Part shown: positions 20,806 through 38,410 of the stretch, piece by piece
Layout: each line of letters begins with the position of its first letter
How positions within the stretch are numbered: position 1 is the first letter of the stretch
Assembly (NCBI GenBank): GCA_016787045.1
Contig: JAEUVA010000034.1
Location: 1 to 64,000 of the forward strand
DNA: 64,000 nucleotides
Origin: Chitinophagales bacterium
GTDB lineage: Bacteria > Bacteroidota > Bacteroidia > Chitinophagales > LD1
Reading direction: 5' to 3'
Notes under the pieces: model-generated
Databases searched by the model: none
What the model was told of the DNA's origin: nothing
Seen by the model: the letters and a program-made list of their open reading frames with translations, nothing else
Made by a program: the position numbers and the translations under genes

Positions 20806-23800
20806 CTACTGCTTCACAAAACTCTTCACTGCCGTTTTGCCGCTGGTGGTTTTGATGTGGATGAAGTAAGTGGCTTCAGCTAAAATGGAAGTAGCGAGTT
20901 GCAAGTTGCGAGTTGCGAGGTTGGATTGAGTGATGATGATTCTTCCCGTTACATCGGCAACTTGAATACTTTGAATTTCTTCCTCGCTTTCTATGTTTAT
21001 CACATTTGTGGTTGGGTTTGGATAAATCACCGTTCTGAAACTGGCAATCTCCCCTATTCCAACTATTGTAACATTCAAGGCACTTGAAGTGTTTGAACAT
21101 CCATTAGCATCGGTTACTAAAACGGTGTAGCTGCCGTTTTGTGTTGCTGTGTAGTTTTGTGCTGTTGCATTGTTGATGTTGCCGTTATTCAACTGCCATT
21201 GGTAGCTGCTGAATGATTGTGTACTCAATGTGTTGCCACTTTGTGTAATCGTTGGTTGCGGCAGTGCATTCACCGTTAATGTGAGTGTTACGATAGAATC
21301 GCAACCGCCTACGCTCACCAAAGTATCGAGGTATTGACCTGCCTGTGTAAGTTGCTGACCATTGAAGGTGTAGCTTTGCCCTTGGCAAATGGCTTGACTA
21401 ACACTTCCGGTTACAAAACTGTTTACGGTTAAGTTCAGCATGATGAAACTATCGCAACCCAAGGTGGTTTGCAGGGTATCAAAATACTGACCTGCTTGTG
21501 TGAGTTGTTGCCCTTTGAAGGTGTATGATTGACCTGTGCAGATTCCTGCATTGATGGTGTTTTCTATCTTGCTTAATACTGTAAGATCAAGTGTAATCAC
21601 AGAATCGCATCCTACACTGTTTGATTCAGTTCTGTTGTAACTACCGGATTGAGTAAGTGTTTGGTTACCAAAAACAAAACTCTCTCCAAAGCAAACTGTT
21701 GCAGCAAATGAACTTGCACTATTGAGTTTTATTGTAACCGTTTTGCTGGTGGTAGAAGAGCAGTTTCCGTTGCTCACAGTTACAGTGTAGGTGGTTGTTT
21801 GTGCAGGTGAAACTGTGATGGAAGCGTTGCTCCCTAATCCGTTTGCCCAAGCATAGCTATTGCCACCAGTAGCGGTGAGGGTAAAAGTATTGCCTTCACA
21901 AACAGAACTTACACCACTTATGCCTGCGGTAGGTGTGGTTTGCACACTAACTGTTTGCGATGCAGTAGCGGTGCAGTTGCCTGCGCCTGTTACCGTTACA
22001 GAATAAGTAGTGTTTGTGCTTGGCGAAACTGTTACACTCGCATTGGTGCCAAGTGAATTACTCCACACATAGCTGTTGCCACCGCTTGCTGTTAATGTTA
22101 TATTCAACCCTGAGCATACCGTAGTTGGTCCGCTGATTTGGGCATTTACAGTGTTTACCGTTACTGCTACTACCAACGAGGTATCTGCTCCGCAAGAGTT
22201 GGAAACAATACAACGGTAATTTCCTGCATCTACTGCTACTGATGAAGCGATACTGTAAGTAGCTGTATTAGAACCATTGCCCGATAAATTTACTCCACCT
22301 TTCTGCCACTGGTAGGTGATGTTGTTTCCGGTAGCTGTTACAGAAACACTAAACGGCTGACCTCCGCATACTGCAACGGCAGATGGCTCTTGTGTAATAT
22401 CCGGTGCAATACATGGTGCGGGTAAATTGATGCGGGCTGTGTAAACATCGTAGTTGACTGCATTATTAGTGAGTGCAGTTAAACCATCAAAATTGGTTTG
22501 TAAACTGTTGCCTGAACCTACCATATAAATGGTGTTACCAACCGCAAGCACATCGCTCGCATAATCATCCTGAAAGCCACCGGCACGCTGAAATTTATCC
22601 CAAGTTCCAGAGGTTTTGCTTAACCTGCCAATAAACATATCGTTGCCCCCGGCATTGGTGTAAGTGTTTCCGGCTACTGTAACTTGTGAGCCGGTCATAT
22701 AACCACACACCACCGGCAGGTTTGCAGAATCAAGCGTAACGTTATTGAAAAATATTTGGGTGTTGGTGTTGTAGAAAAAAACCGTATCGGCTGCGGCATT
22801 GTATTTAATCAATGCACCGGTGGTAGTGCCCTGTGTGCAAGCCAAATAAATACGATTATCAGTTTTATCTACTGCCAATCCATTTACCACACCACCAAAA
22901 AAGCCCGTAACAACCGGATGATTAAACGCATTTATCCCCAATAAAATGGCACCGTTTGTGGCAGAAACTCTTGCTAAAAATGCTTTTTTGGAATTAGCGC
23001 TTGTAATGCCGCCAGAAACTGCTGTGCTGCCGAGTGGTCCTTGCAACGACATGTTGCTTACAGTACCTGTCCATTCACCGGTGGCTACCACATTTCCCTG
23101 TCCGTCAAACTCCAGATTGTTGCAGGTGGCCGGTCCTTGCACCGTTCCTAATGGTTTCACTCTTACTGCCCACTGGTAATTTCCCAAGCTGTCATACTTG
23201 GCAATGTATCCGTCATTGATGTCGGTAGTAAACTTATTAGAGAAACCATCGGCATCGGTGAGGAATGAATTTGCATTTTGATGACAGCGACCACCTATAA
23301 AAATAGTAGCTCCATCGGGCGATACGAGTACGGCATCGCCTGTATTTTGAGAGGTGGGTCCTGCAGAATAGGTCAAGCGATAAGCCCATGCCCAGTTGCC
23401 ATCGCTTCGCATTTTGGCTATGAACATAGAGCGCGTTTGATCGCCTTGTATGGTTTTTGTGCCAAATGTAAGTGTGCCGTTAAAATAGCCGGTTACATAG
23501 GCATTGCCCTGCGCATCCACATCTAAAGATGTAAATGCACTTTCACCGGTTCCGGTCGGAACAATTGGCGGTGAATAAGTACCGTTGGTTTCATCTTGAA
23601 TAGCAATCCATCCGCGGCTACCTACCACACCACTAAAAGAGTGTGCACCAAATGTAGCCGATGGAGAAGTAACCCACCCACAGGTGTAAATAAAACCGCC
23701 CGAACCTTTTTTAATGCTCACTCCAAAGTCAGCAGAAGTGCCGCCTGCTTTGCGTGCCCATGCCCAGTTTTGAGCGGTAGTTTGTAAAGTTGTAATCAGT

Positions 23801-23829
23801 ACCGTAAGAAAAAGCAGAATGTACTTCAT
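20806..23829 (-). CDS. T9SS surface protein with propeller, Ig-like and PKD-like repeats
   Basis: The start chosen is ATG 23829 (MKYILLFLTVLITTLQTTAQ, a signal peptide). The frame also reaches TTG 23853, but that lies in the conserved leader. The 1007-residue product has a propeller-like first half with GNAYVTGYFNGTLTFG and similar blades, an Ig-like domain (ITYQWQKGGVNLSG...GNYRCIVSNSCG), two copies of the 72-residue repeat (SGPTTVCSGLNITLTASGG), three C-x-G-x-S repeats with GCDS (ICTGQSYTFKGQQLT), an Ig-like domain, and a type A sorting domain (IYPNPTTNVI...FVKQ). The promoter carries the family A direct repeats. It is probably controlled by the kinase/regulator pair at 25562-29257, and is a surface protein of unknown target. 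Confidence 0.92.
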   Translation of the reverse strand: MKYILLFLTVLITTLQTTAQNWAWARKAGGTSADFGVSIKKGSGGFIYTCGWVTSPSATFGAHSFSGVVGSRGWIAIQDETNGTYSPPIVPTGTGESAFTSLDVDAQGNAYVTGYFNGTLTFGTKTIQGDQTRSMFIAKMRSDGNWAWAYRLTYSAGPTSQNTGDAVLVSPDGATIFIGGRCHQNANSFLTDADGFSNKFTTDINDGYIAKYDSLGNYQWAVRVKPLGTVQGPATCNNLEFDGQGNVVATGEWTGTVSNMSLQGPLGSTAVSGGITSANSKKAFLARVSATNGAILLGINAFNHPVVTGFFGGVVNGLAVDKTDNRIYLACTQGTTTGALIKYNAAADTVFFYNTNTQIFFNNVTLDSANLPVVCGYMTGSQVTVAGNTYTNAGGNDMFIGRLSKTSGTWDKFQRAGGFQDDYASDVLAVGNTIYMVGSGNSLQTNFDGLTALTNNAVNYDVYTARINLPAPCIAPDITQEPSAVAVCGGQPFSVSVTATGNNITYQWQKGGVNLSGNGSNTATYSIASSVAVDAGNYRCIVSNSCGADTSLVVAVTVNTVNAQISGPTTVCSGLNITLTASGGNSYVWSNSLGTNASVTVSPSTNTTYSVTVTGAGNCTATASQTVSVQTTPTAGISGVSSVCEGNTFTLTATGGNSYAWANGLGSNASITVSPAQTTTYTVTVSNGNCSSTTSKTVTIKLNSASSFAATVCFGESFVFGNQTLTQSGSYNRTESNSVGCDSVITLDLTVLSKIENTINAGICTGQSYTFKGQQLTQAGQYFDTLQTTLGCDSFIMLNLTVNSFVTGSVSQAICQGQSYTFNGQQLTQAGQYLDTLVSVGGCDSIVTLTLTVNALPQPTITQSGNTLSTQSFSSYQWQLNNGNINNATAQNYTATQNGSYTVLVTDANGCSNTSSALNVTIVGIGEIASFRTVIYPNPTTNVINIESEEEIQSIQVADVTGRIIITQSNLATRNLQLATSILAEATYFIHIKTTSGKTAVKSFVKQ

Positions 23830-23850
23830 GTGTATGAATTTTGTTTGGCA

Positions 23851-23919
23851 CAAAACTCATACGCGCAGTTCTTAAAACAGTACACGATTTCACGAAACCC
23901 CTGTTTTGGTTTCATGAAC
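23851..23919 (-). promoter_or_regulatory. Family A direct-repeat operator and promoter of the 20806-23829 gene
   Basis: On the minus strand, GTTCATGAAA and TTTCGTGAAA (plus-strand 23910-23919 and 23888-23897) lie 22 bp apart. A TTTG -7 candidate is at 23851-23854, 46 bp from the proximal repeat, followed by the leader GCCAAACAAAATT and the ATG. The block 23883-23922 is nearly identical to 25501-25540. Paired direct repeats at two-turn spacing are typical of LytTR regulator sites; the binding itself is inferred. Confidence 0.6.
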
Positions 23920-23929
23920 AGAATAAAAA

Positions 23930-23959
23930 AACCCGCCCTCGTTGCCGAGGTGCGGGATT
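23930..23959 (-). terminator. Terminator of the 23984-25447 gene
   Basis: A hairpin with CCCGC/GCGGG outer arms and CTCG/CGAG inner arms ends in a U-run on the minus strand. Between it and the stop lies the tag GAGTTTTGTTTA, shared with other T9SS genes here. Confidence 0.85.
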
Positions 23960-23983
23960 AAACAAAACTCAACTCATCCTTTA

Positions 23984-25447
23984 TTACTGCTTCGCAAAAC
24001 TCTTTACTGCGGTTTTGCCGGTAGTGGTTTTGATGTGAATGAAATAAGTGGCTTCAGCTAAAATGGAAGTAGCGAGTTGCAAGTTGCGAGTTGATAGGTT
24101 ATTCTCAGCAATGATGATTCTTCCGGTTACATCAGCAACTTCAATGGCTTGAATATCTTCACTGCAATCTATGTGCAACACATTTGAAGTTGGGTTCGGA
24201 AATATCACACTGCTGAAATCTGCAACCTCACTTAAGCTACTTACTGTAACATTTACTGCAGCCGATGTGTTGCTGCACCCATTGGCATCGGTTACTCTTA
24301 CTGTGTAGCTGCCGTTTTGTGTGGCAGTGTAGTTTTGAGCAGTGGCTCCGTTAATGTCGTTGCCATTTAACCTCCACTGATAACTGCTGAATGTTTGGGT
24401 ATTGAGCGTGTTAGCATTTTGGACAATAGTAGGTAGAGGTAAATCATATACGGGAACTACTACACTTGCCATTGCACCATAGCACCCTGATGCATCAGTT
24501 ACTTTTACGGTATAAGTAGAGGAGAATGTCGGAGTAGCGGTTGCTGTTGCAGTGGTGGAGGTAATAGCCGGATTACCGTTACCTGCATCCCAGCTATAGT
24601 TGGCTACAGCGCCAGAAGGTGTGGCTGTTAGTGTTACCGGGTTTCCAACGCAAACACTCGTTGGAGATGCGCTAAGCGTTACGCCCAGTGTAACTGGTGA
24701 AGTTGTAGTAGGATCGGGTTCATTATACAGGCAAGTAACTTCTGCATCGGTTAACGCCTTGTTGTAAATATTAATATCGTCTATTGCACCTAAAAAGCCG
24801 TTGAAGCCATTTGACCGCAATCCGATAAGAAATGGAGTGTTTGAAGAAGAATTTGCATAAACGCCAGTGAATGTCTGGTTATATTTTAGCGCACCATTCA
24901 CATATATTTTGTGTCGGTTATTATCATTTTTGTTGTAAGTAAACACAATATGATGCCACTGCCCGGTTGCATAGGATGTAGTGTCATAGTCACCGTTAGC
25001 GTTTACAACGCGAATGGCAACAAGGGTATTGGCGCTGTTTGTTAGTTCTAACAAAAACTGCTCCTTAAAGGGGTCGGAATTCCACCGAGCCAAAATGCAC
25101 CGGTTTGATGTAAGACTATTGGCATCGGGTTTTACCCACACCGAAAAGCTAACGGCATCCATGTTGTTCAAATCAAAAAAATCGGGAGTTTGAGGAGAAC
25201 TGGTGTTGTAATAATAAAACGCTGCGCTACCATTAAAGTAATAGGCATGATTGGCGTTGCCAAAACGGTCGGCAGTTGGTGTAGGATTTGAAAAACCAGT
25301 TAAGCCATCATACAATGAGTGGTCAATGTTTACTTCATTGTCTTTGCTTCCGAGGGTAAAATAAAATTTACCCACCAAGCCAAGATTAATTTGAGCTTGA
25401 GCAACAAAAACGATAGCCGAGAATAAAAGTGTAAATAGTTTTTTCAT
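23984..25447 (-). CDS. T9SS surface protein with LamG-like and PKD/Ig-like domains
   Basis: The 487-residue product has a signal peptide (MKKLFTLLFSAIVFVAQAQ), then a LamG/concanavalin-like jelly roll at about residues 25-235, with WVKPDANSLTSN, WHHIVFTYNKND and LGAIDDINIYNKALTDAEV as typical strands. After it come a PKD-like domain (CVGNPVTLTATPSG), an Ig-like domain (SSYQWRLNGNDINGA) and a type A sorting domain (IFPNPTSNVL...FAKQ). LamG domains often bind carbohydrate, but the ligand is unknown. The gene lies 114 bp downstream of the LytTR regulator and has family A repeats in its promoter. Confidence 0.92.
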   Translation of the reverse strand: MKKLFTLLFSAIVFVAQAQINLGLVGKFYFTLGSKDNEVNIDHSLYDGLTGFSNPTPTADRFGNANHAYYFNGSAAFYYYNTSSPQTPDFFDLNNMDAVSFSVWVKPDANSLTSNRCILARWNSDPFKEQFLLELTNSANTLVAIRVVNANGDYDTTSYATGQWHHIVFTYNKNDNNRHKIYVNGALKYNQTFTGVYANSSSNTPFLIGLRSNGFNGFLGAIDDINIYNKALTDAEVTCLYNEPDPTTTSPVTLGVTLSASPTSVCVGNPVTLTATPSGAVANYSWDAGNGNPAITSTTATATATPTFSSTYTVKVTDASGCYGAMASVVVPVYDLPLPTIVQNANTLNTQTFSSYQWRLNGNDINGATAQNYTATQNGSYTVRVTDANGCSNTSAAVNVTVSSLSEVADFSSVIFPNPTSNVLHIDCSEDIQAIEVADVTGRIIIAENNLSTRNLQLATSILAEATYFIHIKTTTGKTAVKSFAKQ

Positions 25448-25468
25448 GTGTTAGAATTTTGTTTGGCT

Positions 25469-25537
25469 CAAAAAACAGCTACAAATTTCTTCCAACAACA
25501 CACGATTTCACGAAGACCCTGTTTTGGTTTCATGAAC
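25469..25537 (-). promoter_or_regulatory. Family A direct-repeat operator and promoter of the 23984-25447 gene
   Basis: On the minus strand, GTTCATGAAA (25528-25537) and CTTCGTGAAA (25506-25515) lie 22 bp apart, and TTTG (25469-25472) is 46 bp from the proximal repeat, the same geometry as at 23851-23919. The leader GCCAAACAAAATTC precedes the ATG. The operator lies directly downstream of the regulator gene 25562-26347, its likely ligand. Confidence 0.6.
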
Positions 25538-25561
25538 GGAAGAAAACTACGCTTTTGAAAA

Positions 25562-26347
25562 CTAAATGATTGACGACTTACCGCCTGCTATACGTATTTC
25601 AGCAAAGCTGTCTTCAAAATCTTTTTTGCGCTCTTTAGATACAGGTAAAGCAGTTTCATCTTCCATCAATATGAAGCTCTCCATTCTGTTGTACTTGCGC
25701 ACATAGTTCAAATTCACCAAGTGCGAACGATGAATACGGAAAAAGTTTTTACGCTTAGTAAGCATTTCTTCAAAGAATTTAATCTTTCGGCTTACCAATA
25801 GTTTTGAACCATTGCTTAAACACACATTAGTATAGGCACCCTCTGCCTGAAGCAGCACAATTTCAGAAACCTCTACAAACAAAACCCCATCACTAACAGG
25901 TAAAGCAATGCGCGAAAATTCATCGGTTTGCAAGTTGCTTTGCAACAACTCCAAACGTTGCTTCATACTATGTGCAGAAAGTTTACCCCGTAGTTTTTCT
26001 ACTGCGGTTTTCAGCTTTTCTACCTGCAAAGGTTTTAGCAAATAATCTACTGCCGAAAGCTCGAATGCCTTAACAGCATAATCGCTATAAGCCGTAACAA
26101 ACACTATTTCAAAACTCACTTCATCAAAAAATTTCAACAACTCAAAGCCATTAAACTCCAGCATTTCAATATCCAAAAAAACCACATTGGGTTGATGCTC
26201 CTTTATGGCTAACACTGCTTTGGGAACATTTGAACATTGCGCTACTACTTTTACATTGTTTACTGAAGTTTCCAGCAATGTTTCCAAAGTACGTCTTGCA
26301 TGTGCCTCATCATCCACTATTATCGCATTGATAATTTCTTCTTTCAT
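25562..26347 (-). CDS. LytTR-family response regulator (pair 1)
   Basis: The 261-residue product has an N-terminal receiver domain with acidic pocket VDDE (11-14), phospho-acceptor D59 in VVFLDIEM, T85 in FVTAYSD and K105 in DYLLKPLQ. The C-terminal half (about 150-245) is a LytTR DNA-binding domain: VLLQAEGAYTNV, FEEMLTKRKNFFRIHRSHLVNLNYV, and LPVSKERKKDF. The upstream gene on the same strand, 15 bp away, is the cognate sensor kinase, so phosphotransfer between them is expected. LytTR domains bind paired direct repeats. Such repeats occur before the next two T9SS genes downstream. Confidence 0.93.
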   Translation of the reverse strand: MKEEIINAIIVDDEAHARRTLETLLETSVNNVKVVAQCSNVPKAVLAIKEHQPNVVFLDIEMLEFNGFELLKFFDEVSFEIVFVTAYSDYAVKAFELSAVDYLLKPLQVEKLKTAVEKLRGKLSAHSMKQRLELLQSNLQTDEFSRIALPVSDGVLFVEVSEIVLLQAEGAYTNVCLSNGSKLLVSRKIKFFEEMLTKRKNFFRIHRSHLVNLNYVRKYNRMESFILMEDETALPVSKERKKDFEDSFAEIRIAGGKSSII

Positions 26348-26362
26348 ACGTCAATAATATTA

Positions 26363-29257
26363 TTAGCTGTTGAATTGAAAAATCTTCAAAATCACCTTTG
26401 TTCCTGAGGCAACATCAGCGACTGTCTTATCTTCAATTCTCATTTCAATTTTTATATGGTAATAATCACGGAGCAAACTTAATCGCTCTTCGGTGGCGCG
26501 TGTGGCAAACGACTGATGTTGTTTTCGTTTTTTGATTTCGGCTGAGGCGGCTCTGCCAATTCCATTGTCTTCAATTTCGCAAAGCAAATAGTCGGGCATT
26601 TTTGTAAATGATACAATCAGTTGCTTTTTGCCTTGTTGATGCAACAGTCCATGCTTTAGCGCATTTTCTACAAATGGCTGAATCACCATTGAAGGAATTT
26701 TCATCTCCTCGGGCTCTAAGTTTTCATCAATATTTAAGCTATAAACTAACTCACCTTCAAATCGTAGTGACTCCAATTCAAGGTAAAGCGAAAGCATTTC
26801 AATTTCAGCATCTAAGGTGATAAACTCATTGCCCGAGGCGTTTAAAACTTTACGGGTTAAATCGCTGAACTTGCCTAAATACAATTGCGCTTTTTCTGAT
26901 TTTTGTTGTATCACCAAATCCTGAATAGAGCTGAGCGCATTAAACATAAAATGCGGATTCATTTGTGCCTTTAAAGTTGAAAGCTGTGAGTTTGCCAACT
27001 TCTTTTCCAAAGCATTTCTCTTTTTGAGTGCGCGAATTCGCAAATAGAAAACTGTTGAAAGCACGCTGCCGAAAAGTAAAAACGCCAACAGATAAAACCA
27101 CCACTGCTGCCAATAGGGTTTCAGAATGGTTAGTTGCAAAGTTTCGGGTTTCATGCTTTCCACTCCGTCTTCGTTTATGGCCACAACTTCAAAAGTATAG
27201 TTGCCCGCAGGCAGCGATGGATAGCGCGCAAAGTTGCTGCTGCTGTTGGTTTCAATCCAATTGGTATCTAAACCCAACAAGCGATATTTAAAAGTAAACT
27301 CACCACGCGAACGAAATGCAATACCTCTGAAATCAATTTTTATATTATTGGATGAATATGCCAGTTCGTAATTGGCATGAAGTGTAGTGTCATGATTATT
27401 GATGTTGACATTGGTAATTGCCACAACCGGTGGAACCTTGTTTTCGGCAAGCATATTCAACGGCAGCGACACCAATCCTTTTGGCGTTGCCAGAAATATC
27501 TTGCCATCCATTATTTCAATGTCTGCAATTTCTAAAGACGGTAATCCATCAAAATGATTGAAGAGCGATGTTTGCTTTGATAGTGTGTTGTATCGGATTA
27601 AATGATGCTCGGCTGTCATCCAAAGTTCATCGGCTTTGCTTGCCAGCTTCCTTACATATCCATTGGTTATTCCAACCACCTCATTCAGCTTTTCTACTAC
27701 TTGCTTTTGATTGAATGCAATAACACCCTGGCTCATGGTGCTTACCCAAACTTTCTTATCCTCAGTCAGCAAAATATCTGTGGCAAAAATTGGTTTCCTC
27801 TCAAGCCGCAGCTCTTCTGAATTTCCATTTTCATAAACAAACAAACCGTCTGAATAGCCCACCCACAAACGTTGCATTGACTCTTCATACTTGGCGCATC
27901 GCACTCTTTTCTTTCTGAAATTACTGATGCGATCTATCTCATTATTGCGGACAACAGCTATCGTTGCATCATTCACTGTTCCGGCAAAAAAATACTGTTT
28001 ATCTATTCTAAAAAATGACTTGATGTTATCGCCATTTTTTAGAAATGATGTGCTGAGATTTTCCACGTTTACATTCCAAAAATTGTTTTGTGCCACATAA
28101 AGTTGTTGGGTTGTTGAATCAAAGTACAACTCCTGAATTTCAAAATGCGAATTGGGGAAAGCAATCGTTTTTAGCTCGCTTGTGCGCTGGTTATACTTGG
28201 ATACTTTACCATTTTGGAAACCAATAAACAAATTGGAGTTGCCATCTTTAGTAAGTTGTCTAATTCGTGTATCAGGCAATTCAGAATTCTCAGCCGTGTG
28301 TATCCACACATTCAAACTTGGCACTATGAATATACCATCCTGCAAAGTGCTGAACCAATAGTTGCCTTCGGCATCAGCCACTACATCGCTGATGCTTTTA
28401 CTTGAAAAAAACAATGTGCCGCCATACAAATCATTCAGATTCTCATCTAAGCATAATGCGCCATTACTGCTGCCTACCCAAATGTGTCCTGCATTATCCT
28501 TATGCAGCGCAAAAACTCTATCGAGCTTTGCGGGCAAATCTCTGAGCCATAGCAGAGAGTCATTGCTGAATTGCCAAATGGAATTTTTGTTTGCTCCATG
28601 TGCCAGCACCACTACTTTACCATCTACAACTTCAAAAAAAGATTGCTTGTATAAATCGCTGAATTGAGCAGGGCGATTTGACTTAATAATTGTTGACAGC
28701 TTACCGTTTTCAAAATATCCAATGCGCTCGCGTGCTGCATAATACACCCTACCATTGTTACATAAAACATCTGTGATAAAACTTAATTTACCATCTTGAT
28801 TGGCAAGTGATAAAAATTGCTTTTTACTTTTTTTAAAAACATAAATTCCCGAATCGGATGAGATATAGAAATCACCATTTTCGTCAACTGTGTAAACAGG
28901 ATAATTTGATTGTGCAATACTACGCTCAGAAGCATAGTGAAGTGAATCTCCATCCACATAAAAAAGCTGACCCGAAAAATTCTGGCACCAAACTTTTCCA
29001 TCAACGTCAATCCTAATATTAGATACTGCTCTGCTATTTTGATTTGAATTTTTGAAACTTTTGAATTCGCTGCCATCGTAATTAAACAGCCCTGCACTTG
29101 TGCCTATCCACACTAATCTATTACTATCTTGAAGCAAGTAATATACTTCATTAGAAGGTAGCCCTGCTCTATCATCTATTTGATAATAATGTGGATGCTG
29201 AGCAAAAATTAAAGCTGCAGAGAGCAGTGATAAAAAGATTAGATATAGTCGCAACAC
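26363..29257 (-). CDS. Sensor histidine kinase with extracytoplasmic propeller and Y_Y_Y domain (pair 1)
   Basis: The frame is open to 29311, but the first 18 codons are the terminator of the gene before it. GTG 29257 gives a clean signal peptide (MLRLYLIFLSLLSAALIFAQ). The product (964 residues) has two-component-regulator propeller blades (LPSNEVYYLLQDS, LVWIGTSAGLFNYDG) to about residue 620, a Y_Y_Y domain at about 650-710, one membrane segment near 725, a LytS-like His_kinase domain with NPHFMFNALSSIQ near 769, and an ATPase domain with QPFVENALKHGL. It senses an unknown periplasmic signal and should phosphorylate the regulator 15 bp downstream. No ATG is available near the start. Confidence 0.9.
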   Translation of the reverse strand: MLRLYLIFLSLLSAALIFAQHPHYYQIDDRAGLPSNEVYYLLQDSNRLVWIGTSAGLFNYDGSEFKSFKNSNQNSRAVSNIRIDVDGKVWCQNFSGQLFYVDGDSLHYASERSIAQSNYPVYTVDENGDFYISSDSGIYVFKKSKKQFLSLANQDGKLSFITDVLCNNGRVYYAARERIGYFENGKLSTIIKSNRPAQFSDLYKQSFFEVVDGKVVVLAHGANKNSIWQFSNDSLLWLRDLPAKLDRVFALHKDNAGHIWVGSSNGALCLDENLNDLYGGTLFFSSKSISDVVADAEGNYWFSTLQDGIFIVPSLNVWIHTAENSELPDTRIRQLTKDGNSNLFIGFQNGKVSKYNQRTSELKTIAFPNSHFEIQELYFDSTTQQLYVAQNNFWNVNVENLSTSFLKNGDNIKSFFRIDKQYFFAGTVNDATIAVVRNNEIDRISNFRKKRVRCAKYEESMQRLWVGYSDGLFVYENGNSEELRLERKPIFATDILLTEDKKVWVSTMSQGVIAFNQKQVVEKLNEVVGITNGYVRKLASKADELWMTAEHHLIRYNTLSKQTSLFNHFDGLPSLEIADIEIMDGKIFLATPKGLVSLPLNMLAENKVPPVVAITNVNINNHDTTLHANYELAYSSNNIKIDFRGIAFRSRGEFTFKYRLLGLDTNWIETNSSSNFARYPSLPAGNYTFEVVAINEDGVESMKPETLQLTILKPYWQQWWFYLLAFLLFGSVLSTVFYLRIRALKKRNALEKKLANSQLSTLKAQMNPHFMFNALSSIQDLVIQQKSEKAQLYLGKFSDLTRKVLNASGNEFITLDAEIEMLSLYLELESLRFEGELVYSLNIDENLEPEEMKIPSMVIQPFVENALKHGLLHQQGKKQLIVSFTKMPDYLLCEIEDNGIGRAASAEIKKRKQHQSFATRATEERLSLLRDYYHIKIEMRIEDKTVADVASGTKVILKIFQFNS

Positions 29258-29277
29258 AAAAGCAAAAAAAGAAAAAA

Positions 29278-29303
29278 TCCCGCCCTCATTGCTGAAAGCG
29301 GGA
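29278..29303 (-). terminator. Terminator of the chimeric gene 29327-29821
   Basis: Arms TCCCGC/GCGGGA followed by a U-run on the minus strand, with the GAGTTTTGTTTA tag between stop and hairpin. The hairpin and flank are identical to those at 10628-10653. The kinase frame 26363-29311 reads through it, which argues that the kinase starts downstream. Confidence 0.8.
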
Positions 29304-29326
29304 GTAAACAAAACTCAGATACTTAA

Positions 29327-29821
29327 CTACTGCTTCACAAAACTCTTCACCGCGGTTTTTCCGTTGGTGGTTTTGATATGAATGAAGTAGGTGGCTTCTG
29401 CTAGTATGTCGGTTGCCAGTTGCGAGTTGTGAGTTGCAAGATTAGTTTGAGTGATGATGATTCTGCCGGTAACATCTGCAATTTCAATTGATTGAATTTC
29501 TTCATCACATTCAACATTCAATACACTTGAAGTTGGGTTTGGATAAATTACCGTTCTGAAACTGGCAATCTCCCCTATTCCAACTATTGTAACATTCAAG
29601 GCACTTGAAGTGTTTGAACATCCATTAGCATCGGTTACCAAAACGGTGTAGCTGCCTTTTGTGTTGCTGTGTAGTTTTGTGAAATTGCTTGGCAAATCTT
29701 TATCATCACTAATACTGTAGAAGTAAGAATGCTGGCTTTCTACATCAACAAAAAAAATAAGAAAGAAGAACAACAGTGGCAGCTTTCGCACAAAAACGAA
29801 GGAAACAAAAAACCGCACCAA
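29327..29821 (-). CDS. Chimeric gene: sensor-kinase N-terminus fused to a T9SS sorting cassette
   Basis: The 164-residue frame starts at TTG 29821 (or GTG 29818); there is no ATG. Residues 1-50 are a signal peptide (VRKLPLLFFFLIFFVDVESQ) and HSYFYSISDDKDLPSN, which matches the start of propeller kinases such as pair 1 (HYYQIDDRAGLPSN). From about residue 56 it is the Ig-like end and sorting domain of a T9SS protein (GSYTVLVTDANGCSNTSS...FVKQ), nearly identical in DNA to the 3' end of 20806-23829. DNA homology extends to 29681. A one-base deletion after the junction puts the sorting domain back in frame, so residues TKLHSNTK are old cassette DNA read in another frame. This may be a recombination relic; expression is uncertain. 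Confidence 0.65.
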   Translation of the reverse strand: MVRFFVSFVFVRKLPLLFFFLIFFVDVESQHSYFYSISDDKDLPSNFTKLHSNTKGSYTVLVTDANGCSNTSSALNVTIVGIGEIASFRTVIYPNPTSSVLNVECDEEIQSIEIADVTGRIIITQTNLATHNSQLATDILAEATYFIHIKTTNGKTAVKSFVKQ

Positions 29822-29872
29822 TTACTTACTGTGGACCTAAAGCGTACAGTTAATAACAGCTTCAAAAAAAAA

Positions 29873-29900
29873 TCCCCCGCCCGAATAAACGAACGAGGGA
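29873..29900 (-). terminator. Terminator of the 29936-34519 gene
   Basis: An imperfect hairpin (TCCC...GGGA with inner CG pairs) with a long U-run on the minus strand, preceded by the GAGTTTTGTTTA tag after the stop codon. Confidence 0.75.
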
Positions 29901-29935
29901 CTAAACAAAACTCAACTCTCTAAATGAGTTTGATG

Positions 29936-32900
29936 CTATTGCTTGATAAACATTTTCTGTGCGTTTCCTTTAGCAGTTTTGGCATTGAGCATATATGTGC
30001 CTTCCGCCAAATCAGATACTCTAATCTTTGTAATTTCTCCGCTTACAAATATCACTTGCTCTCCGGCTACATTGTAAACCTCTACGCTTTCTACCAGTTC
30101 ATCACAAACTATCACGAGTATTTCTGATGTAGGGTTAGGGTAAACATTGAAGTTCATTTCGGCAGATACATTTTCAATACCCACTACTGTTACACTAAGT
30201 GCTGCTGATGTGTTGCTGCACCCGTTCGCATCGGTTACTCGTACTGCATAGCTTCCGCTTTGTGTAGCAGTAAAGTTTTGTGTAGTTGCACCGCTAATAT
30301 CGCTACCATTTAGTTGCCATTGGTAACTGTTGAATGTTTGTGTGCTCAAGGTATTTCCGCTTTGCGTAATGGTTGGGGCAGGTAAGGCATTTACGGTTAT
30401 TGTAATATCATTTGATGTTTCGCTGCCGCACGCATTGCTTGCTGCCACTGTGTATGTTTTGGTACCTGGTGTAAGGTTGGTGGCCGTGTAGCTATTGCTG
30501 TTGGTGCCCACATTTGCATTGCCATCTTTCCACTGGTAGCTTAAGTTATCACCGGTAGCAGTTACGTTGAGCGTTACGCTTTCTCCGGCACATACACTGG
30601 TACTGCTGGCGGTTGGCTGCTGGGTAATTTGCAATGGCTGCTCAACACCAAGTGTAAGCGTTACGGTGCTGTCGCAACCGTTTATACTGATAAATACTTC
30701 ATTATATGTACCGGCTGTGGTTAGCGTTTGGTTGCCAAAAGTATAAGCGCTGCCATCGCAGATACTTACATTAAACGAAGATGTCAATTCTGGCAATACA
30801 GTCAATTGCAGTGTTATTACACTATCGCAACCCGCGCTGTTTACTTCTATCTTGGTGTAGTTGCCGCTTTGGGTCAGTGTTTGGGCATCAAAAGTGTAGC
30901 TACCGCCAAAGCAAATGGTTTCGCTAAAGCTAAATGAAGTTGGTTGTTTTACCGCTACCGTTTGCGAAGCAGTGGCCGAGCAGTTAGCGCCTATGCTTAC
31001 AGTTACAGTGTATGTAGTGTTTGTTGTTGGCGAAACGGTGATAGCTGAAACAGTTACGCTGTTACTCCATTCGTAGGTATTTCCTCCGTTGGCGGTTAAT
31101 GTTACGCTGCTTCCTAAACAAACTTCTGTTGGGCCTGAAATACTTGCTGTTGGTGCAGATTGAACACTCACTGATTGTGATGCAGTAGCACTACAACCGT
31201 TGGCATCGGTTACTGTTACTGTGTAAGTAGTGTTTGCAGTTGGTGTGAATGTGGCTTGTGCATTAGTTCCACCTGAGTTACTCCAGGCATAAGATGTGCC
31301 TCCACTTGCAGTTAGCGTTGCTGATAATCCCGAGCAAATTGTTGTAGGTCCGTTGATGCTTGCGGTAACTGTGTTTACGGTAACTAATCTTGATGCTGTT
31401 GCCGAGCAGTTGTTTGCCGCAGTAACAGTAACCGTGTAGGTTGTGCTTGTTGTTGGAGCGAAGGTTGCTTGTGCGTTGCTGCCTCCGCTATTACTCCACA
31501 CATAAGTTCCACCACCGCTGGCAGTAAGTGCTTGCGATGCACCATTGCAGATACTTGCGGTTGCAGGTGTGATTGCCGCAGTAGGATTTGTATTTACAGT
31601 AACCAACCGTGAAGCTGTTGCCGAGCAGTTGTTTGCACTTGTAACAGTTACAGTGTAAGTAGTGCTTGTAGTTGGAGTAACTGTTTTTGCTGCTCCGCTT
31701 CCTAAGCTGTTGCTCCATGCGTAAGTGCCTCCGCCACTTGCTGTGAGGTTTGCACTTGCTCCTTCGCAAATAGTAACTGTGGCAGGGGTGATGGCTGCGG
31801 TTGGAGTTGCGTTTACAGTTATTGCAATGGGCAATCTTGTTGATTCACAACCGGTGCTTACAAATCTTACTACTGCATAATAAGTTGAATCTGCATTTAA
31901 AACAGGTGTGGTAAAACTTGTTCCGGTGAATATTGAAGTGCCGCCTGTGGCAACATTGTACCACACTATAGCGGCTGCGGCTGTAGTGCTTGCAGAAAGC
32001 GTAGTGGTTTGTCCGCTGCAACGGGTAAGGTTTGCAGTGGGTGTGGTGTTGGTTGGAGCATTTGGCACAACATTTACAGTGATGCCTATTTGAGTGCGTG
32101 TAGATGAACAATTGCCAACTTTACTTGCAACAAAATATGCAGCTCCGTTTTGCAACACAGGGGTTGTGTAACTATTGCCGGTTGCAAGTGGGCTTCCGCC
32201 TGTTGGGTCGGCAAACCATTCCAATGTGCCGCTTCCTGATGCCGTAAGCACGGTAGAATTACCTTGACACACACTCAAATTCGCGCTTGGTGTGGTATTG
32301 GTTGGTGCAGCAGGTGGAGCAACTACAGTAACCGCAATGGGCAATCTTGTTGCTGAAACACAGCCAGTAGTCAAGTTTTGCATATCCACATAAAAAGTGG
32401 CATTTGAACTCAAACTGCTTGTAGGTATGTTTATGGATGTGCCGCTTCCCAACAAGTTTGGTGTGGCGGTTCCTGTTGGAACGTTCCACCAATTCACTTG
32501 AAAACCTGCTCCGGGATTAACTACCGAAAGCGTGGTACCACTACCTTGGCATACCGTTAAATTTGCCGATGGAGTGTTGCTGGTTGGCACTGCCGGCAAA
32601 GGCAATACAGTAACAAGTATTGCTGTGCGGCTTGACAAACATCCATTGTTGTTTGACCTTACATAAAAAGTTGAATCTTGATTTAGCGAAGGTGTAATGA
32701 AAGTTGAACCGGTGCCTAATACAGTTCCTCCGGTGGCTACATTAAACCACTCTAAAATTCCTGTTCCCGATGCTGAAAGAAAAGCCGATTGCCCAACGCA
32801 AGTTTGTTGGTTTTGTGTAGTAGTGGTATTGGTTGGTGCAGATGGTGGTGTTGAAACATTAACAGTTAAAGTTAATGGAGGCAAAGAGCCACATCCATTT

Positions 32901-34519
32901 TCATAGGCAAACACTTCGTAAGAAGTGGCTTGACTCAAAGCATTCGTAGTGTATGTGCTCGAAGTGCTGATAGGTTGAGGAAACTGCCCCACTTCATACC
33001 ATTCTAAAGCAAGTGGTGTGGAAGCAACACTTAACACAGTAGTGGCACCGCTGCAAATATTCAAATTGGCAGAAGGTGTTGTACTTGTTGGTGCAGCAGG
33101 ACGTTTTTTTACTGTTATAGTAAAAGTTGTTCTTGCCGAAGTGCCGCAAGGCGTTGTGCGCTCGGCATAGTAATTTAATGTGTAAGATGCCGCTGGTGCA
33201 GGGTCGGCAAATGTAGGCGTGGTAAAGCTGTTGCCGGTGCCAAGCACCGAACCGCCCGTAGGCAAACTATACCAAGACACTGTTCCCGGACCGGCAGCTA
33301 CCTGTAAAATTGTAAGGTTGTTGCCACCAACAATGTAACAGTAGTTTACGTTGCTGTTGGTAGCTGTAGGTGCCGGGTTGGTTACGGTTACTGCCACTGC
33401 TGTTCGTGCCGAAACACAAGAACCCGAGCTTGCCTGCACATAATAGGTGGTATTTGTGGTTAGCGCAGGAGTGGTAAAACTACCGCCTGTGCCTAATTGA
33501 TTGCCGCCTGTCGGTGCGTCATGCCAAGTAAGGTTTGTGCCTGTTGCGGTAAGTGTGGTGGTGGCTCCGCAAACTATATTTTGATTAGCGGTTGTTGTGG
33601 TATTTACAGGTGAATTTGCCACCGTTACGTTTACGATAATTCCTAACCTGTTTGAGCAGTTTCCGGTTTGCGCATAGTAAGTAGTGTTAGCGTTCAACAC
33701 CGGAGTTGTAAATGGCGCACCTGTTCCCACCACATTTCCGCCAGTTAAAGCATCATACCAGATAACATTTGTGGTAGTAGATAAACTAAGCGTGGTTGAA
33801 TTGCCTGAGCATATATTCAAATTTGCAGATGGAGTGGTGCTGGATGGTGCATTACAAAACTCATAGAGTGTGGTAACTTCTTGTGCGGTTAACACACGGT
33901 TGTAAAAAAACAAATCATCTATTTGGTAATTGCCAAAGTATGTTCCAAATGGTGAGTAACCCAGTCTTGAAGTTGAAGGCGTGATGTTAAACAAACCAAA
34001 GTTAGCGGTGTTGGTAAGCGCACCGTTTACGTATAAAGCCAGTTGTGTTCCGCTGTATGTTACAGCAACATGTGTCCAATTGCCGGTGTAAGTAATGTTG
34101 TGGGTAATAGGAGCAATTGAACCTCCACTGCCGTTACCCGAAACTACCTGAATTTGACCGGCATCATACACAGCGCCAAAAAAATTGTTTGCCCCCCCAT
34201 AGTTAAACAAAGAGTGGGTGCTGTTGGAATTGCTTTTGTACCAAAAACAAAATGAGCGAGGCGAAGCCGAAGCAGTGGGCAACGATGGAATACCCGCACT
34301 CGAAAAAGCATTGGCAGCAGCCGCCAGATTGTGTGCGCGATTAGAGTTACCGAATCGGTCGTTGGTATAATTAGCTGTTCCACCGGCTAAAGTATGCCCA
34401 CCAGAGCCTGTAAGTGTATTGTCAAAGGAGTAATAGTGCAAGAGGCCGTTAGACGGTGCCTGAGCAAAACTAAATGCCGATACTGCACAAGCCAGAAGAA
34501 AAATAAAAAACTGTTTCAT
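29936..34519 (-). CDS. Large T9SS surface protein with LamG-like domain and 8 Ig-like repeats
   Basis: The start is ATG 34519 (MKQFFIFLLACAVSAFSFAQ, a signal peptide); the frame upstream to 34561 is leader. The product has 1527 residues: a LamG-like domain (FCFWYKSNSNSTHS, WTHVAVTYSGTQLALYVNGA, YQIDDLFFYNRVLTAQEV), eight Ig_7-like repeats (TTPSANLNICSGNSTTL...TTYYAQ), four 72-residue repeats (ITPATVTICEGASANLTAS), two GCDS repeats, two Ig-like domains and a type A sorting domain (VYPNPTSEIL...FIKQ). Its sorting domain differs from the nearly identical group in 10700, 20806, 23984 and 29327. The promoter carries family B direct repeats. It is probably a surface adhesin controlled by pair 2. 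Confidence 0.92.
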   Translation of the reverse strand: MKQFFIFLLACAVSAFSFAQAPSNGLLHYYSFDNTLTGSGGHTLAGGTANYTNDRFGNSNRAHNLAAAANAFSSAGIPSLPTASASPRSFCFWYKSNSNSTHSLFNYGGANNFFGAVYDAGQIQVVSGNGSGGSIAPITHNITYTGNWTHVAVTYSGTQLALYVNGALTNTANFGLFNITPSTSRLGYSPFGTYFGNYQIDDLFFYNRVLTAQEVTTLYEFCNAPSSTTPSANLNICSGNSTTLSLSTTTNVIWYDALTGGNVVGTGAPFTTPVLNANTTYYAQTGNCSNRLGIIVNVTVANSPVNTTTTANQNIVCGATTTLTATGTNLTWHDAPTGGNQLGTGGSFTTPALTTNTTYYVQASSGSCVSARTAVAVTVTNPAPTATNSNVNYCYIVGGNNLTILQVAAGPGTVSWYSLPTGGSVLGTGNSFTTPTFADPAPAASYTLNYYAERTTPCGTSARTTFTITVKKRPAAPTSTTPSANLNICSGATTVLSVASTPLALEWYEVGQFPQPISTSSTYTTNALSQATSYEVFAYENGCGSLPPLTLTVNVSTPPSAPTNTTTTQNQQTCVGQSAFLSASGTGILEWFNVATGGTVLGTGSTFITPSLNQDSTFYVRSNNNGCLSSRTAILVTVLPLPAVPTSNTPSANLTVCQGSGTTLSVVNPGAGFQVNWWNVPTGTATPNLLGSGTSINIPTSSLSSNATFYVDMQNLTTGCVSATRLPIAVTVVAPPAAPTNTTPSANLSVCQGNSTVLTASGSGTLEWFADPTGGSPLATGNSYTTPVLQNGAAYFVASKVGNCSSTRTQIGITVNVVPNAPTNTTPTANLTRCSGQTTTLSASTTAAAAIVWYNVATGGTSIFTGTSFTTPVLNADSTYYAVVRFVSTGCESTRLPIAITVNATPTAAITPATVTICEGASANLTASGGGTYAWSNSLGSGAAKTVTPTTSTTYTVTVTSANNCSATASRLVTVNTNPTAAITPATASICNGASQALTASGGGTYVWSNSGGSNAQATFAPTTSTTYTVTVTAANNCSATASRLVTVNTVTASINGPTTICSGLSATLTASGGTSYAWSNSGGTNAQATFTPTANTTYTVTVTDANGCSATASQSVSVQSAPTASISGPTEVCLGSSVTLTANGGNTYEWSNSVTVSAITVSPTTNTTYTVTVSIGANCSATASQTVAVKQPTSFSFSETICFGGSYTFDAQTLTQSGNYTKIEVNSAGCDSVITLQLTVLPELTSSFNVSICDGSAYTFGNQTLTTAGTYNEVFISINGCDSTVTLTLGVEQPLQITQQPTASSTSVCAGESVTLNVTATGDNLSYQWKDGNANVGTNSNSYTATNLTPGTKTYTVAASNACGSETSNDITITVNALPAPTITQSGNTLSTQTFNSYQWQLNGSDISGATTQNFTATQSGSYAVRVTDANGCSNTSAALSVTVVGIENVSAEMNFNVYPNPTSEILVIVCDELVESVEVYNVAGEQVIFVSGEITKIRVSDLAEGTYMLNAKTAKGNAQKMFIKQ

Positions 34520-34537
34520 ATAAATTTTGTTTGAGCG

Positions 34538-34604
34538 CAAAACTGTTCTTCGCTCATTCAAAATCTGCTTCCGCTTTACGAAATACTGTATCTGTTTTAC
34601 GAAA
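34538..34604 (-). promoter_or_regulatory. Family B direct-repeat operator and promoter of the 29936-34519 gene
   Basis: On the minus strand, two copies of TTTCGTAAA (34596-34604 and 34575-34583) lie exactly 21 bp apart. TTTG at 34538-34541 is 45 bp from the proximal repeat, then the leader TCAAACAAAATTT and the ATG. The same box type at the same 21-bp spacing lies between the kinase and regulator of pair 2 (37523-37553). Confidence 0.6.
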
Positions 34605-34620
34605 CTGGCTAATGGCGAAC

Positions 34621-37482
34621 TTAATCTTCCACCACTGCAATCATCAACACTACGGTGGTGCCTGTAGGTTGCCCATCAGATGATACTTTGTCAACGTAGT
34701 GCACATTCACCGCTCCGGCATGACCATGGTTGAGCGCATTTAAGCGCTTTTCATTGGCTTGTGTAGCAAAAGATTGATGCTGCTTGTTCTTAATCTTGTT
34801 TAGTTCTTGCGAGCGCATTCTGCCGACACCATTATCATCAATCGTTACTTTCAAGAAATTATCTCTTAACTCAAACGAACACTTCAACCAACGTTCCCCT
34901 TTTTTATGGAGTAATCCATGCTTTACGGCATTTTCTATATATGGCTGAATTATCATAGATGGTATATGAATGTCGGTAGTGTTGATGTAGGGGGCAACCT
35001 CAATCAAAAAACTCATTGCATCATCAAAGCGTGTTTTTTCTAATTCCAGATAAAGTAAGATAGCGTCCACTTCTTCTTGCAGTGTTACAGAGTTCTTATT
35101 ACTCATGTCTAATATGGTACGGGTGAGTTGCGAAAACTTACCGAGATATGAAGTGGCGTTTTGCTTATCGTTGAGATAAATAAATGATTGGATAGTGTTG
35201 AGCGCATTGAATATAAAATGCGGATTCATTTGTGCTTTTACAGAGGCCAAAATGCTTTCGCGCAATTTGTTTTCTAACTCAATTTTTTGTCGCTCTAAGG
35301 TGTTTTGCTGTTGTATCAGTTTTACACGATAGCTATAAAGTGCGTAGCCGGTACCTGCTACCGCTGCCATAGATAACAAGTAAAACCACCATGTTTTCCA
35401 AAATGGGGGTTTTATGCTAAAGTTCAGCTCTTGTATGTGTGAAAGCTGCCCCAAACTGTTCTCTGCTTTTAGCTGAATCGCATAATCTCCGGGCTCCAGT
35501 GAAATCAACTTCAATTCCCGCTGACCGCTTTCTGTTTGCTGCCAATCGCCATTGTTTACTTTGTAAAACACCTGCAAATCTTCGGCAGTACCATAATAAG
35601 GGATACTGTACTTTATCTCTATGTTGTTGTTATCGTGTGATAAGGCAGCATGCCTCATCAAAGATTGTTTCCCATCTGTAAATTTATCAATATGAAAAAG
35701 CAACTCGTGCTTATCGGTTTGTACCGCATCCAACGGTACCTGTACAATGCCTTGGTCGCTACCTATACACAATTGATTGCCGAATACACTAAAATCATTG
35801 ATTTCAAAACTATTGTTCCACTCATAAGCTACAGGGGCAGAGTCCATATCGGTGAGCCGGTATAGTTTGGCTCCGGCAGAAAACCACACGGCATCTGTTG
35901 AAGGCCGGATGTTTTTTATGTTATTTTCTGCCAGCATAAATACTTTTGTTTTTAACGTGTTAGCTTGTACATCTATTTCAGAAATAGTGGTGCCAGACGT
36001 GCCGTAGATTTTACCTCTGAAAAATGCGATATCGTTTAGTTGCAGATGTTTACCATCCGGTTTTAGCTCCATGTATGTATTTGCTGTTACCCTGAGCAAA
36101 CCCATTGTGGTTGCTGCATAGCATACCGAATCGGTACCGTCTGACACCATCGCCTTCACTCGCACATTTCCACCATTGATTACAAATGGATTGGCGATTG
36201 CCCAATGTCTACCCTCATACATCACTGCAGATTTATCTCCGGATATTACACCTTGGAGATACAGTAGTGAAAATCCACCTGTACGTCCGAGCAAAAATGA
36301 ATTGTGCTGTAAAGGTAGTACTTTTTTAACTGCTAAGTTGACATACTCAGCCTGCTCATTTTTGTGCTGTAGTATAAAATTGTCTGCTGCTACTAGATTT
36401 ACCTCCTTAGCGGTTTGTAGCATGCTAATAATCTGCTGCCTTTCTATTGTTTTATACACCAGCTTGAGTTGGTATTGGCCATTACGCTCATAAACTTCTC
36501 CCGCTACTGTCCCCACCTGTAGTTTTCCTGTTGCCGCTGAATAGCTGACACAACTTACGGGCTCAGCCAAAGGCCAAAGCGTACCTTCCCAAAAATCATA
36601 CTTAAAAATACCATTATCTAAAGTAGTTACCCAAATTCTTCCTTCTATGTCCTCAAAAACATCTGACAAATTTTTATTTTGCAATAATGGCTGCGAGATA
36701 TTTAACCGCTTCAATTGTTTGTCTAATACATACAAACCGCTATTGGTGCAAATAAATAACAAGGAGTCTCGCACTACTCTAACAGATTGTACAAACATGT
36801 TATTTAAAGGTACTGACATAGAAGCGTTTCCCGGAAACAACTCAAACACCTCAGCGTTGTTGATTTTCTTTGGAAACAATAAAATCCTACCCTGAAAGTC
36901 TGCCACAAAAAACACCGTTTGCTTTCCTACGTCCACAGACACCTTTTTCGCATGTATTCTTCCGAGTAAATCGTAGAGACTATCCCCATCAAATACCCAC
37001 ATTATTCCTTGGTACTTAAACACAGAAAAAATTTCACGTGGAAACGGTATAGTATCGGCACCACCAACTTTATGCATATACACAAAGTTTCTGCTGTATT
37101 GATAGCTAGTATCTTTGTTGTGGTAAATCACCGGAGCAAAGTTTCCGATCCGGGGCCAAGTTTTGTCTTGCAGCAAAGTATCGCCACTGATGTAATAGTG
37201 ATTGTTAGAAAAAGTTTGACACCGGAGTAACCCTAAATCGTCTATCCGTAAATCGCTCACTCCGTTGAGGTCGGCATTAGAATAGTTTTTGTAGTGCAAG
37301 CCATCATACCGAATTAGTCCTTTATCTGTACCCAACCAAATGTAATGCTGCTTATCTTGTACAATGTTGTACACTGTATTGGCAGGCAACCCAGCTTGCT
37401 TAGATATACTGCGGTAAGCTGGTTGCTGCGCAATCAGTAGAATTACATTGGCAATAAAAGGTAGTACTAAAATCTTTTTCAA
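34621..37482 (-). CDS. Sensor histidine kinase with extracytoplasmic propeller and Y_Y_Y domain (pair 2)
   Basis: The 953-residue product has a signal peptide (MKKILVLPFIANVILLIAQQ), propeller blades (LPANTVYNIVQDKQHYIWLG and similar) to about residue 600, a Y_Y_Y domain at about 625-695, a membrane segment near 704, a LytS-like His_kinase domain with NPHFIFNALNTIQSF near 752, and an ATPase domain with QPYIENAVKHGL. The start is TTG; no in-frame ATG exists. A TAAGTTTG -7 match at 37488-37495 lies so close that the mRNA may begin at or near the start codon. The regulator partner (37560) is divergent, with paired boxes between them. Confidence 0.9.
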   Translation of the reverse strand: MKKILVLPFIANVILLIAQQPAYRSISKQAGLPANTVYNIVQDKQHYIWLGTDKGLIRYDGLHYKNYSNADLNGVSDLRIDDLGLLRCQTFSNNHYYISGDTLLQDKTWPRIGNFAPVIYHNKDTSYQYSRNFVYMHKVGGADTIPFPREIFSVFKYQGIMWVFDGDSLYDLLGRIHAKKVSVDVGKQTVFFVADFQGRILLFPKKINNAEVFELFPGNASMSVPLNNMFVQSVRVVRDSLLFICTNSGLYVLDKQLKRLNISQPLLQNKNLSDVFEDIEGRIWVTTLDNGIFKYDFWEGTLWPLAEPVSCVSYSAATGKLQVGTVAGEVYERNGQYQLKLVYKTIERQQIISMLQTAKEVNLVAADNFILQHKNEQAEYVNLAVKKVLPLQHNSFLLGRTGGFSLLYLQGVISGDKSAVMYEGRHWAIANPFVINGGNVRVKAMVSDGTDSVCYAATTMGLLRVTANTYMELKPDGKHLQLNDIAFFRGKIYGTSGTTISEIDVQANTLKTKVFMLAENNIKNIRPSTDAVWFSAGAKLYRLTDMDSAPVAYEWNNSFEINDFSVFGNQLCIGSDQGIVQVPLDAVQTDKHELLFHIDKFTDGKQSLMRHAALSHDNNNIEIKYSIPYYGTAEDLQVFYKVNNGDWQQTESGQRELKLISLEPGDYAIQLKAENSLGQLSHIQELNFSIKPPFWKTWWFYLLSMAAVAGTGYALYSYRVKLIQQQNTLERQKIELENKLRESILASVKAQMNPHFIFNALNTIQSFIYLNDKQNATSYLGKFSQLTRTILDMSNKNSVTLQEEVDAILLYLELEKTRFDDAMSFLIEVAPYINTTDIHIPSMIIQPYIENAVKHGLLHKKGERWLKCSFELRDNFLKVTIDDNGVGRMRSQELNKIKNKQHQSFATQANEKRLNALNHGHAGAVNVHYVDKVSSDGQPTGTTVVLMIAVVED

Positions 37483-37487
37483 CCGCC

Positions 37488-37553
37488 CAAACTTACATGA
37501 TGAGTTACAATATGCGGCTCAATTTTGTAAAACAAATTGGCTATTTGGTAAAA
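37488..37553. promoter_or_regulatory. Family B direct repeats and kinase promoter in the divergent spacer
   Basis: TTTTGTAAAA (37523-37532) and TTTGGTAAAA (37544-37553) are direct repeats 21 bp apart, like those before 34519. Toward the kinase, TAAGTTTG (37488-37495, minus) matches the -7 consensus, about 44 bp from the proximal box. This suggests that the regulator controls its own pair. Confidence 0.55.
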
Positions 37554-37559
37554 TAGCAG

Positions 37560-38330: not shown

Positions 38331-38359
38331 ATCCCCTCACGGATAAACCGAGAAGGGAT
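38331..38359. terminator. Shared terminator between convergent genes
   Basis: An imperfect hairpin (ATCCC...GGGAT with inner CTC/GAG) with A-runs upstream, lying between the regulator (ends 38327) and the T9SS gene (ends 38411). The minus-strand side carries the GAGTTTTGTTT tag. Confidence 0.7.
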
Positions 38360-38410
38360 AAAACAAAACTCAAAAACTCAATTCTGTTTCGGGCAATTGC
38401 TATGTGTAAA

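Follow-up and report, generated by a model that had tools for sequence, protein, structure and literature searches.

A probable species-private fusion of a propeller-kinase start with a T9SS sorting tail in a kinase-adhesin cluster of a Chitinophagales bacterium

The locus and its neighbours

The window, by which we mean the whole 64,000-nucleotide stretch of DNA analysed (Chitinophagales bacterium, assembly GCA_016787045.1, contig JAEUVA010000034.1, positions 1 to 64,000), contains a cluster of propeller kinases, regulators and T9SS adhesins, within which a short chimeric ORF lies between an adhesin gene and the kinase gene kinB. The genes of the cluster are as follows, where G008 is a congener genome and G018 belongs to another genus of the same family:

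37560-38327, plus strand: regulator, the first gene of the cluster as read
34621-37482, minus strand: kinA, a propeller kinase of the cluster
29936-34561, minus strand: T9SS adhesin with Ig_7 repeats, upstream of the chimera, 58% to the G018 gene directly before kinB
29327-29821, minus strand: the chimeric ORF, 164 codons from TTG or 154 from the GTG at 29791
26363-29257, minus strand: kinB, the intact kinase beside the chimera, with propeller, Y_Y_Y and His_kinase domains and orthologues in G008 (52%) and G018 (48%)
25562-26347, minus strand: LytTR response regulator, partner of kinB (domain search)
23984-25447, minus strand: T9SS gene following the LytTR regulator
20806-23853, minus strand: adhesin whose cassette is 20806-21161, the last gene of the cluster as read

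The gene order in G018 is regulator, kinA, three T9SS genes of which the third is the adhesin, kinB and regulator. Its 1551-residue adhesin (58% to the one at 29936) ends 48 bp before kinB with no chimera between them, suggesting that the chimera is either an addition or a remnant between genes that are adjacent in the sister genus. The order in G008 is kinB, regulator and T9SS adhesin.

Two propeller-kinase/LytTR pairs beside Ig_7-type T9SS adhesins are kept in three genomes of the family, and this grouping (20806-38327 in the window; loci L118-L121) is a possible regulatory unit for adhesin expression. As a separate observation, the tail of the adhesin at 29936-34561 (30300-29936, ending KMFIKQ) is of another type than that of the G018 adhesin to which it is 58% similar, and the G018 tail (ending TAVKSFVKQ) resembles the tail of the chimera more than the 29936 tail does. 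It looks as if the old tail of adhesin 29936 stayed behind in the chimera.

Reading frame, joint and sorting cassette

The codon directly ahead of the TTG is a stop, and the chimeric ORF is genuine as a reading frame. The GTG at 29791 is probably the true start, since a gap-free alignment places it opposite the start codon of kinB, also a GTG. Read by eye, the predicted protein begins with a basic n-region, a hydrophobic stretch and a Gln after a plausible cleavage point, and the last of these fits the Bacteroidetes Q-rule, in which Gln follows the signal-peptide cleavage point (PMC5837995). The parts of the ORF and the cassettes related to it at the DNA level, all on the minus strand, are as follows:

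29735-29791: signal-peptide-like start VRKLPLLFFFLIFFVDVES, with Gln next
29684-29734: kinB-type propeller-kinase start QHSYFYSISDDKDLPSN
29657-29681: first 25 cassette bases, the same as in the 20806 copy, read in another frame
29656-29657: point at which one C of the 20806 copy is absent, a loss that returns the cassette frame
29532-29681: tract nearly identical to the 20806 cassette
29342-29548: T9SS type A sorting domain, residues 92-160
20806-21161: cassette sharing the near-identical tract (DNA alignment)
10700-11055: cassette nearest to the chimera over 29540-29491 and the terminator region (DNA alignment)
23954-24337: third DNA-level cassette relative, 76% (DNA search)

An earlier note on this DNA had assigned the first 50 residues to a propeller kinase. 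That assignment holds for residues 11-46, which read VRKLPLLFFFLIFFVDVES-QHSYFYSISDDKDLPSN, whereas residues 48-55 are cassette DNA in the wrong frame. Outside the window, a search covering 30 genomes of the family gave its best match to the start of G008 kinB (58% identity over 34 residues, signal part included, E 7.5e-6). The window's own kinB gave 38% (E 0.038) and G018 kinB 46% over 26 residues (E 0.084), and beyond these three the 30 genomes yielded no match at E <0.05. The scores against G008 kinB and the window's own kinB were reached by 0 of 1000 shuffles. The bases shared with G008 kinB numbered 15, 13 and 8 at the first, second and third positions of 17 codons, which reads as the pattern of a conserved peptide. 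At E 0.01, the 164 residues held no propeller repeats, Y_Y_Y or kinase domain, and the kinase contribution is a start only.

The cassette DNA homologous to 20806-21161 starts at 29681, and alignment to the 20806 copy reproduced the wrong-frame stretch and missing C that the note had described: 25 exact bases are followed by the absence of one C between 29657 and 29656. Were the base not lost, the 20806 cassette in the chimera's entry frame would meet a stop 55 bases beyond the joint, for 65 codons in total. The tetranucleotide GCAA (29688-29685) is common to the chimera and the 20806 cassette immediately ahead of the joint; as possible microhomology it is only a hint, because the next three bases of the chimera (TTT) differ from the cassette. 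The two parts thus have separate, different relatives and meet at a sharp joint, as in a gene fusion, which bears out the proposal that the ORF combines a kinase start with a sorting cassette.

The cassette had also been called nearly identical to that at 20806, a description that is accurate for the 150 nt from 29681 to 29532 but not for the rest, where similarity falls to about 80% and part of the sequence is closer to the cassette at 10700. The clean tract carries two substitutions, both synonymous, and the missing base, with zero nonsynonymous differences from 20806 in its in-frame part, and the remaining 205 nt carry the other 42 of the 44 mismatches (313 of 358 columns are identical over the whole length). 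A stretch this clean arose in none of 100,000 random placements of 44 mismatches (permutation). Over the 50 positions 29540-29491, the chimera agrees with the cassette at 10700 at 47 and with that at 20806 at 37, and the two types meet near 29541, within the conserved YPNPT codons. This partial likeness to 10700, together with the merely local near-identity to 20806, indicates that two types of cassette are combined in the chimera's tail as a mosaic, for which gene conversion or template switching is the natural reading. The near-identical tract stops at the joint because the homology stops there, and either copy may have been the donor in the exchange between 20806 and the chimera.

The C-terminal 73 residues of the chimera belong to the T9SS type A sorting domains (TIGR04183 and PF18962, judged by their curated cut-offs) both by score and by fold. 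Pfam Por_Secre_tail scored 48.1 bits against a cut-off of 27, and TIGR04183 scored 41.3 bits against 23 over residues 92-164 of 164, at the extreme C-terminus. In models built on shallow alignments of window rows, the tail had a pLDDT of 71-90 in ten-residue blocks from residue 91 on and formed an Ig-like beta-sandwich, the fold of T9SS type A cargo tails, with RemA-CTD (8gl6, E 3.7e-4) as its best Foldseek match, followed by RemZ (8gl8) and the mirolase CTD (8qb1). The roughly 60 residues ahead of the tail were modelled as disordered (ten-residue mean pLDDT 24-48). The control model of the 20806 end, built in the same way, had an ordered Ig-like part before its tail (pLDDT 64-85, residues 31 to 80). 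Elsewhere in the window, the tail of each cassette follows a larger folded part, whereas the chimera keeps a broken half-domain only. With a folded tail and disorder ahead of it, the modelled fusion is a sound sorting tag without folded cargo. A small exported, T9SS-tagged product is nevertheless plausible from the sequence, given the signal-peptide-like start, the Gln after the cleavage point and a tail above both cut-offs. The changes private to the chimera's tail comprise 8 synonymous and 2 nonsynonymous ones, compared with a random expectation of 225:738 (P 0.00025; P = 0.0016 were 30% of changes silent), suggesting constraint in the tail's recent past that may predate the fusion.

An independent family with the same full-length architecture, which the note had raised as the counter-case, was sought and was absent from 60 relatives (matches listed) and from 57 loci. 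In the 60 relatives, 59 of which gave a match, none of the matches listed other than the window's own ORF starts before query residue 20. Among the 57 loci, only L062 starts earlier (6-164), and there the match lies at the C-terminal end of an adhesin of 1177 residues. For 56 of these loci, the stop-to-stop frame beneath the match is 480 codons or longer, the exception (L064, 194 codons) being interrupted by a contig end. We therefore rejected a full-length homologue family, and likewise a family of small tail-only ORFs: of seven short ones picked from the matches in the relatives, six run into a contig end, and the remaining one (G004:C84, L140:6934-7272) is an orphan T9SS tail of 112 codons without a signal peptide. 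Short repeats lie ahead of this orphan, and its cassette, too, begins near the ATQSGSY point.

Origin of the chimera and competing explanations

We consider it probable that the chimera is a species-private fusion ORF produced by rearrangement inside the propeller-kinase/T9SS-adhesin cluster. A second kinase of the kinB type, kinX, would once have lain after adhesin 29936, and a deletion or unequal duplication would have joined its codon 46 or thereabouts to a T9SS cassette, of which the 3' half remains, perhaps at GCAA. Exchange with the 20806 cassette would then have overwritten the DNA as far as the joint, and one base would have been lost, either during exchange or repair of the joining region or later, returning the cassette frame. 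The history given in the earlier note, recombination followed by a compensating deletion, survives in its fusion and its frame-restoring loss, but it needs a conversion-like exchange with the 20806 copy in addition. The search for an ancestral intact kinase in relatives, which the note had advised, did not find one: G008 and G018 have kinB orthologues, G018 has no chimera, no relative with the second kinB-type kinase was found, and the proposed lost kinase plus adhesin body was seen nowhere. Within the window, tblastn with five kinase proteins (E <0.01) returned only kinA, kinB and the start of the chimera; no kinase remnants lie beyond that start, the hits at E >=0.04 being short and located in other genes or in the chimera's start.

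If the protein is made, a 154-residue preprotein would pass through Sec and be cleaved before Gln30, and its tail would be recognised at the T9SS and removed, leaving about 60 unfolded residues outside. On balance, we favour a young or dying by-product over a gene with its own job, at roughly two chances to one. The silent bias of the private changes argues against long neutral decay, unless these changes are older than the fusion or were carried in by conversion. It also counts against a by-product that the frame is still open and that the peptide taken from the kinase and the Gln behind the cleavage point are intact.

A simpler route, which we regard as unlikely though not negligible, is a one-step unequal tandem duplication running from the adhesin cassette to about codon 46 of kinB, with no large deletion. 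The chimera lies precisely between two genes that adjoin each other in G018, the adhesin and kinB, and it is composed of the 3' end of an adhesin gene and a start of the kinB type. Fewer steps would be needed. Such a duplication predicts a cassette like that of 29936, whereas the actual one is of the 20806/10700 type and 29936 aligns over only 113 columns at 69%; it also predicts a start like that of the neighbouring kinB, whereas the actual start is nearer to the G008 gene. Later gene conversion could mask the cassette mismatch, but less easily the mismatch at the start.

Somewhat less likely again is a small functional T9SS cargo maintained by selection, for example a reporter or competitor at the surface through which the kinase and regulator next door would be informed about secretion. 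The start, the Q-rule residue and the tail are intact, the silent-biased private changes would agree with selection, the first 150 nt differ from 20806 at just three points, one being the frame-restoring base, and a kinase and a regulator lie directly downstream. Precedent for a surface reporter comes from Porphyromonas gingivalis PorA, which is reported to act on PorXY-SigP (PMC7712824), but PorA has a folded FimH-like domain, which the chimera lacks. Its half Ig-like domain and 17 kinase residues, modelled as disordered, speak against a working cargo, as does the lack of a conserved homologue among the matches listed for the 60 relatives and at the 57 loci.

We consider an assembly or sequencing artefact, whether a false contig join or a wrong base call that mimics frame repair, to be improbable. 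Misassembly is a well-known consequence of cassette repeats, but the TTT before 29681, the missing base and a single-base change at 29639 make the sequence of the joint unique to this place. Within the tract, no exact run shared with 20806 exceeds 89 bases (29638-29550), and any false join must therefore have formed without a long repeat at the joint. In addition, the missing base shortens no homopolymer (AAAACGG to AAAAGG), and the genome is 99.6% complete with 0.22% contamination. Finally, we rejected a PorZ-like gene with an internal deletion as the least probable origin by far: PorZ has the same order of parts, with a propeller-type start and a T9SS tail in one protein (PMC5121618), but it keeps both propellers where the chimera has no propeller match, the genome's PorZ gene lies on another contig (C4:55092-55565), and its start is unrelated to that of the chimera (the strongest local alignment covers 9 residues at E 0.2 and lies away from the protein start, against E 7.5e-6 for G008 kinB).

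The proposed fusion within the cluster resembles fusions in Mycobacterium tuberculosis, in which multigene deletions fuse genes, with deletions seen in isolate genomes and one product by mass spectrometry (PMC7671302). As described there, rearrangement at a locus likewise joins a 5' part to the 3' part of another gene with the frame open; unlike in those fusions, a base whose loss restores the frame is missing at the joint of the chimera, next to a tract of conversion, and the chimera is known here from genome sequence.

Sorting tails and terminators as a candidate 3' unit

The mosaic tail is followed by a terminator, and related sequences recur before other terminators of the cluster and in G018:

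29272-29316, minus strand: terminator-like hairpin (by eye) and T run, with GAGTTTTGTTTACTCCC, common to other cassettes of the cluster, ahead of it
23954-23970, 29300-29316, 29897-29913 and 38355-38371: copies of GAGTTTTGTTTNNTCCC before the terminators of four genes
L120 (G018:C4) 5886-6174 and 10750-11031, and G018:C3:452119-452403 and 443181-443459: tail and terminator copies in G018

The genome holds four copies of GAGTTTTGTTTNNTCCC before terminators, all within the cluster, and the reversed control held 0; a similar sequence occurs at the equivalent place in G008 and G018. At the protein level, there are at least 48 tail matches in the genome. DNA relatives of the cassette longer than 300 bases were found only in this cluster (10698, 20804 and 23954), which with the chimera's own gives four DNA-similar cassettes, all in one cluster. 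Four tail-plus-terminator stretches of G018, located at two places in its genome, share 88-100% identity across about 285 bases. One pair (5948/10808) is identical in 278 of 288 columns, and the gene at 10808-12442 has a 544-residue body that matches the adhesins of the window solely through its tail, the body itself being unrelated. The near-identical tails of G018, taken with the cluster-limited cassettes and motif, indicate at the level of sequence that the cassette and terminator are exchanged as a 3' unit in both genera.

We offer more tentatively the idea, possible but less likely than the alternative, that the family's sorting tail and terminator form a copy-and-paste 3' unit, passed from gene to neighbouring gene by recombination, and that the chimera is a new exported protein caught early, its frame mended by one lost base and its tail then coming under selection. 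Recombination among surface proteins with T9SS tails is described in P. gingivalis, where it takes the form of domain rearrangement and allelic exchange (PMC5266723). As reported there, adhesin domains vary among whole proteins, whereas here the tail and terminator appear to be exchanged, in one case onto a kinase start. Literature searches on T9SS tails, recombination, fusion and concerted evolution, at the level of titles and abstract openings, turned up no report of tails spreading with their terminators.

Alone, the chimera would be the rearrangement scar of one bacterium, a local accident. As a dissected case of the way in which a new reading frame for an exported protein can come about, it packs into a few hundred bases a signal-peptide-like start, a ready sorting tail with its terminator and the mending of the frame. 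If the idea of a copied 3' unit is true, a tail unit landing behind a start that bears a signal peptide could mint an exported protein in one step. The copying of tails with their terminators is what a specialist may care about: tails and terminators homogenised within each genome, in two genera and in one instance on a body of unrelated sequence, would go some way towards explaining the growth of T9SS cargo repertoires.
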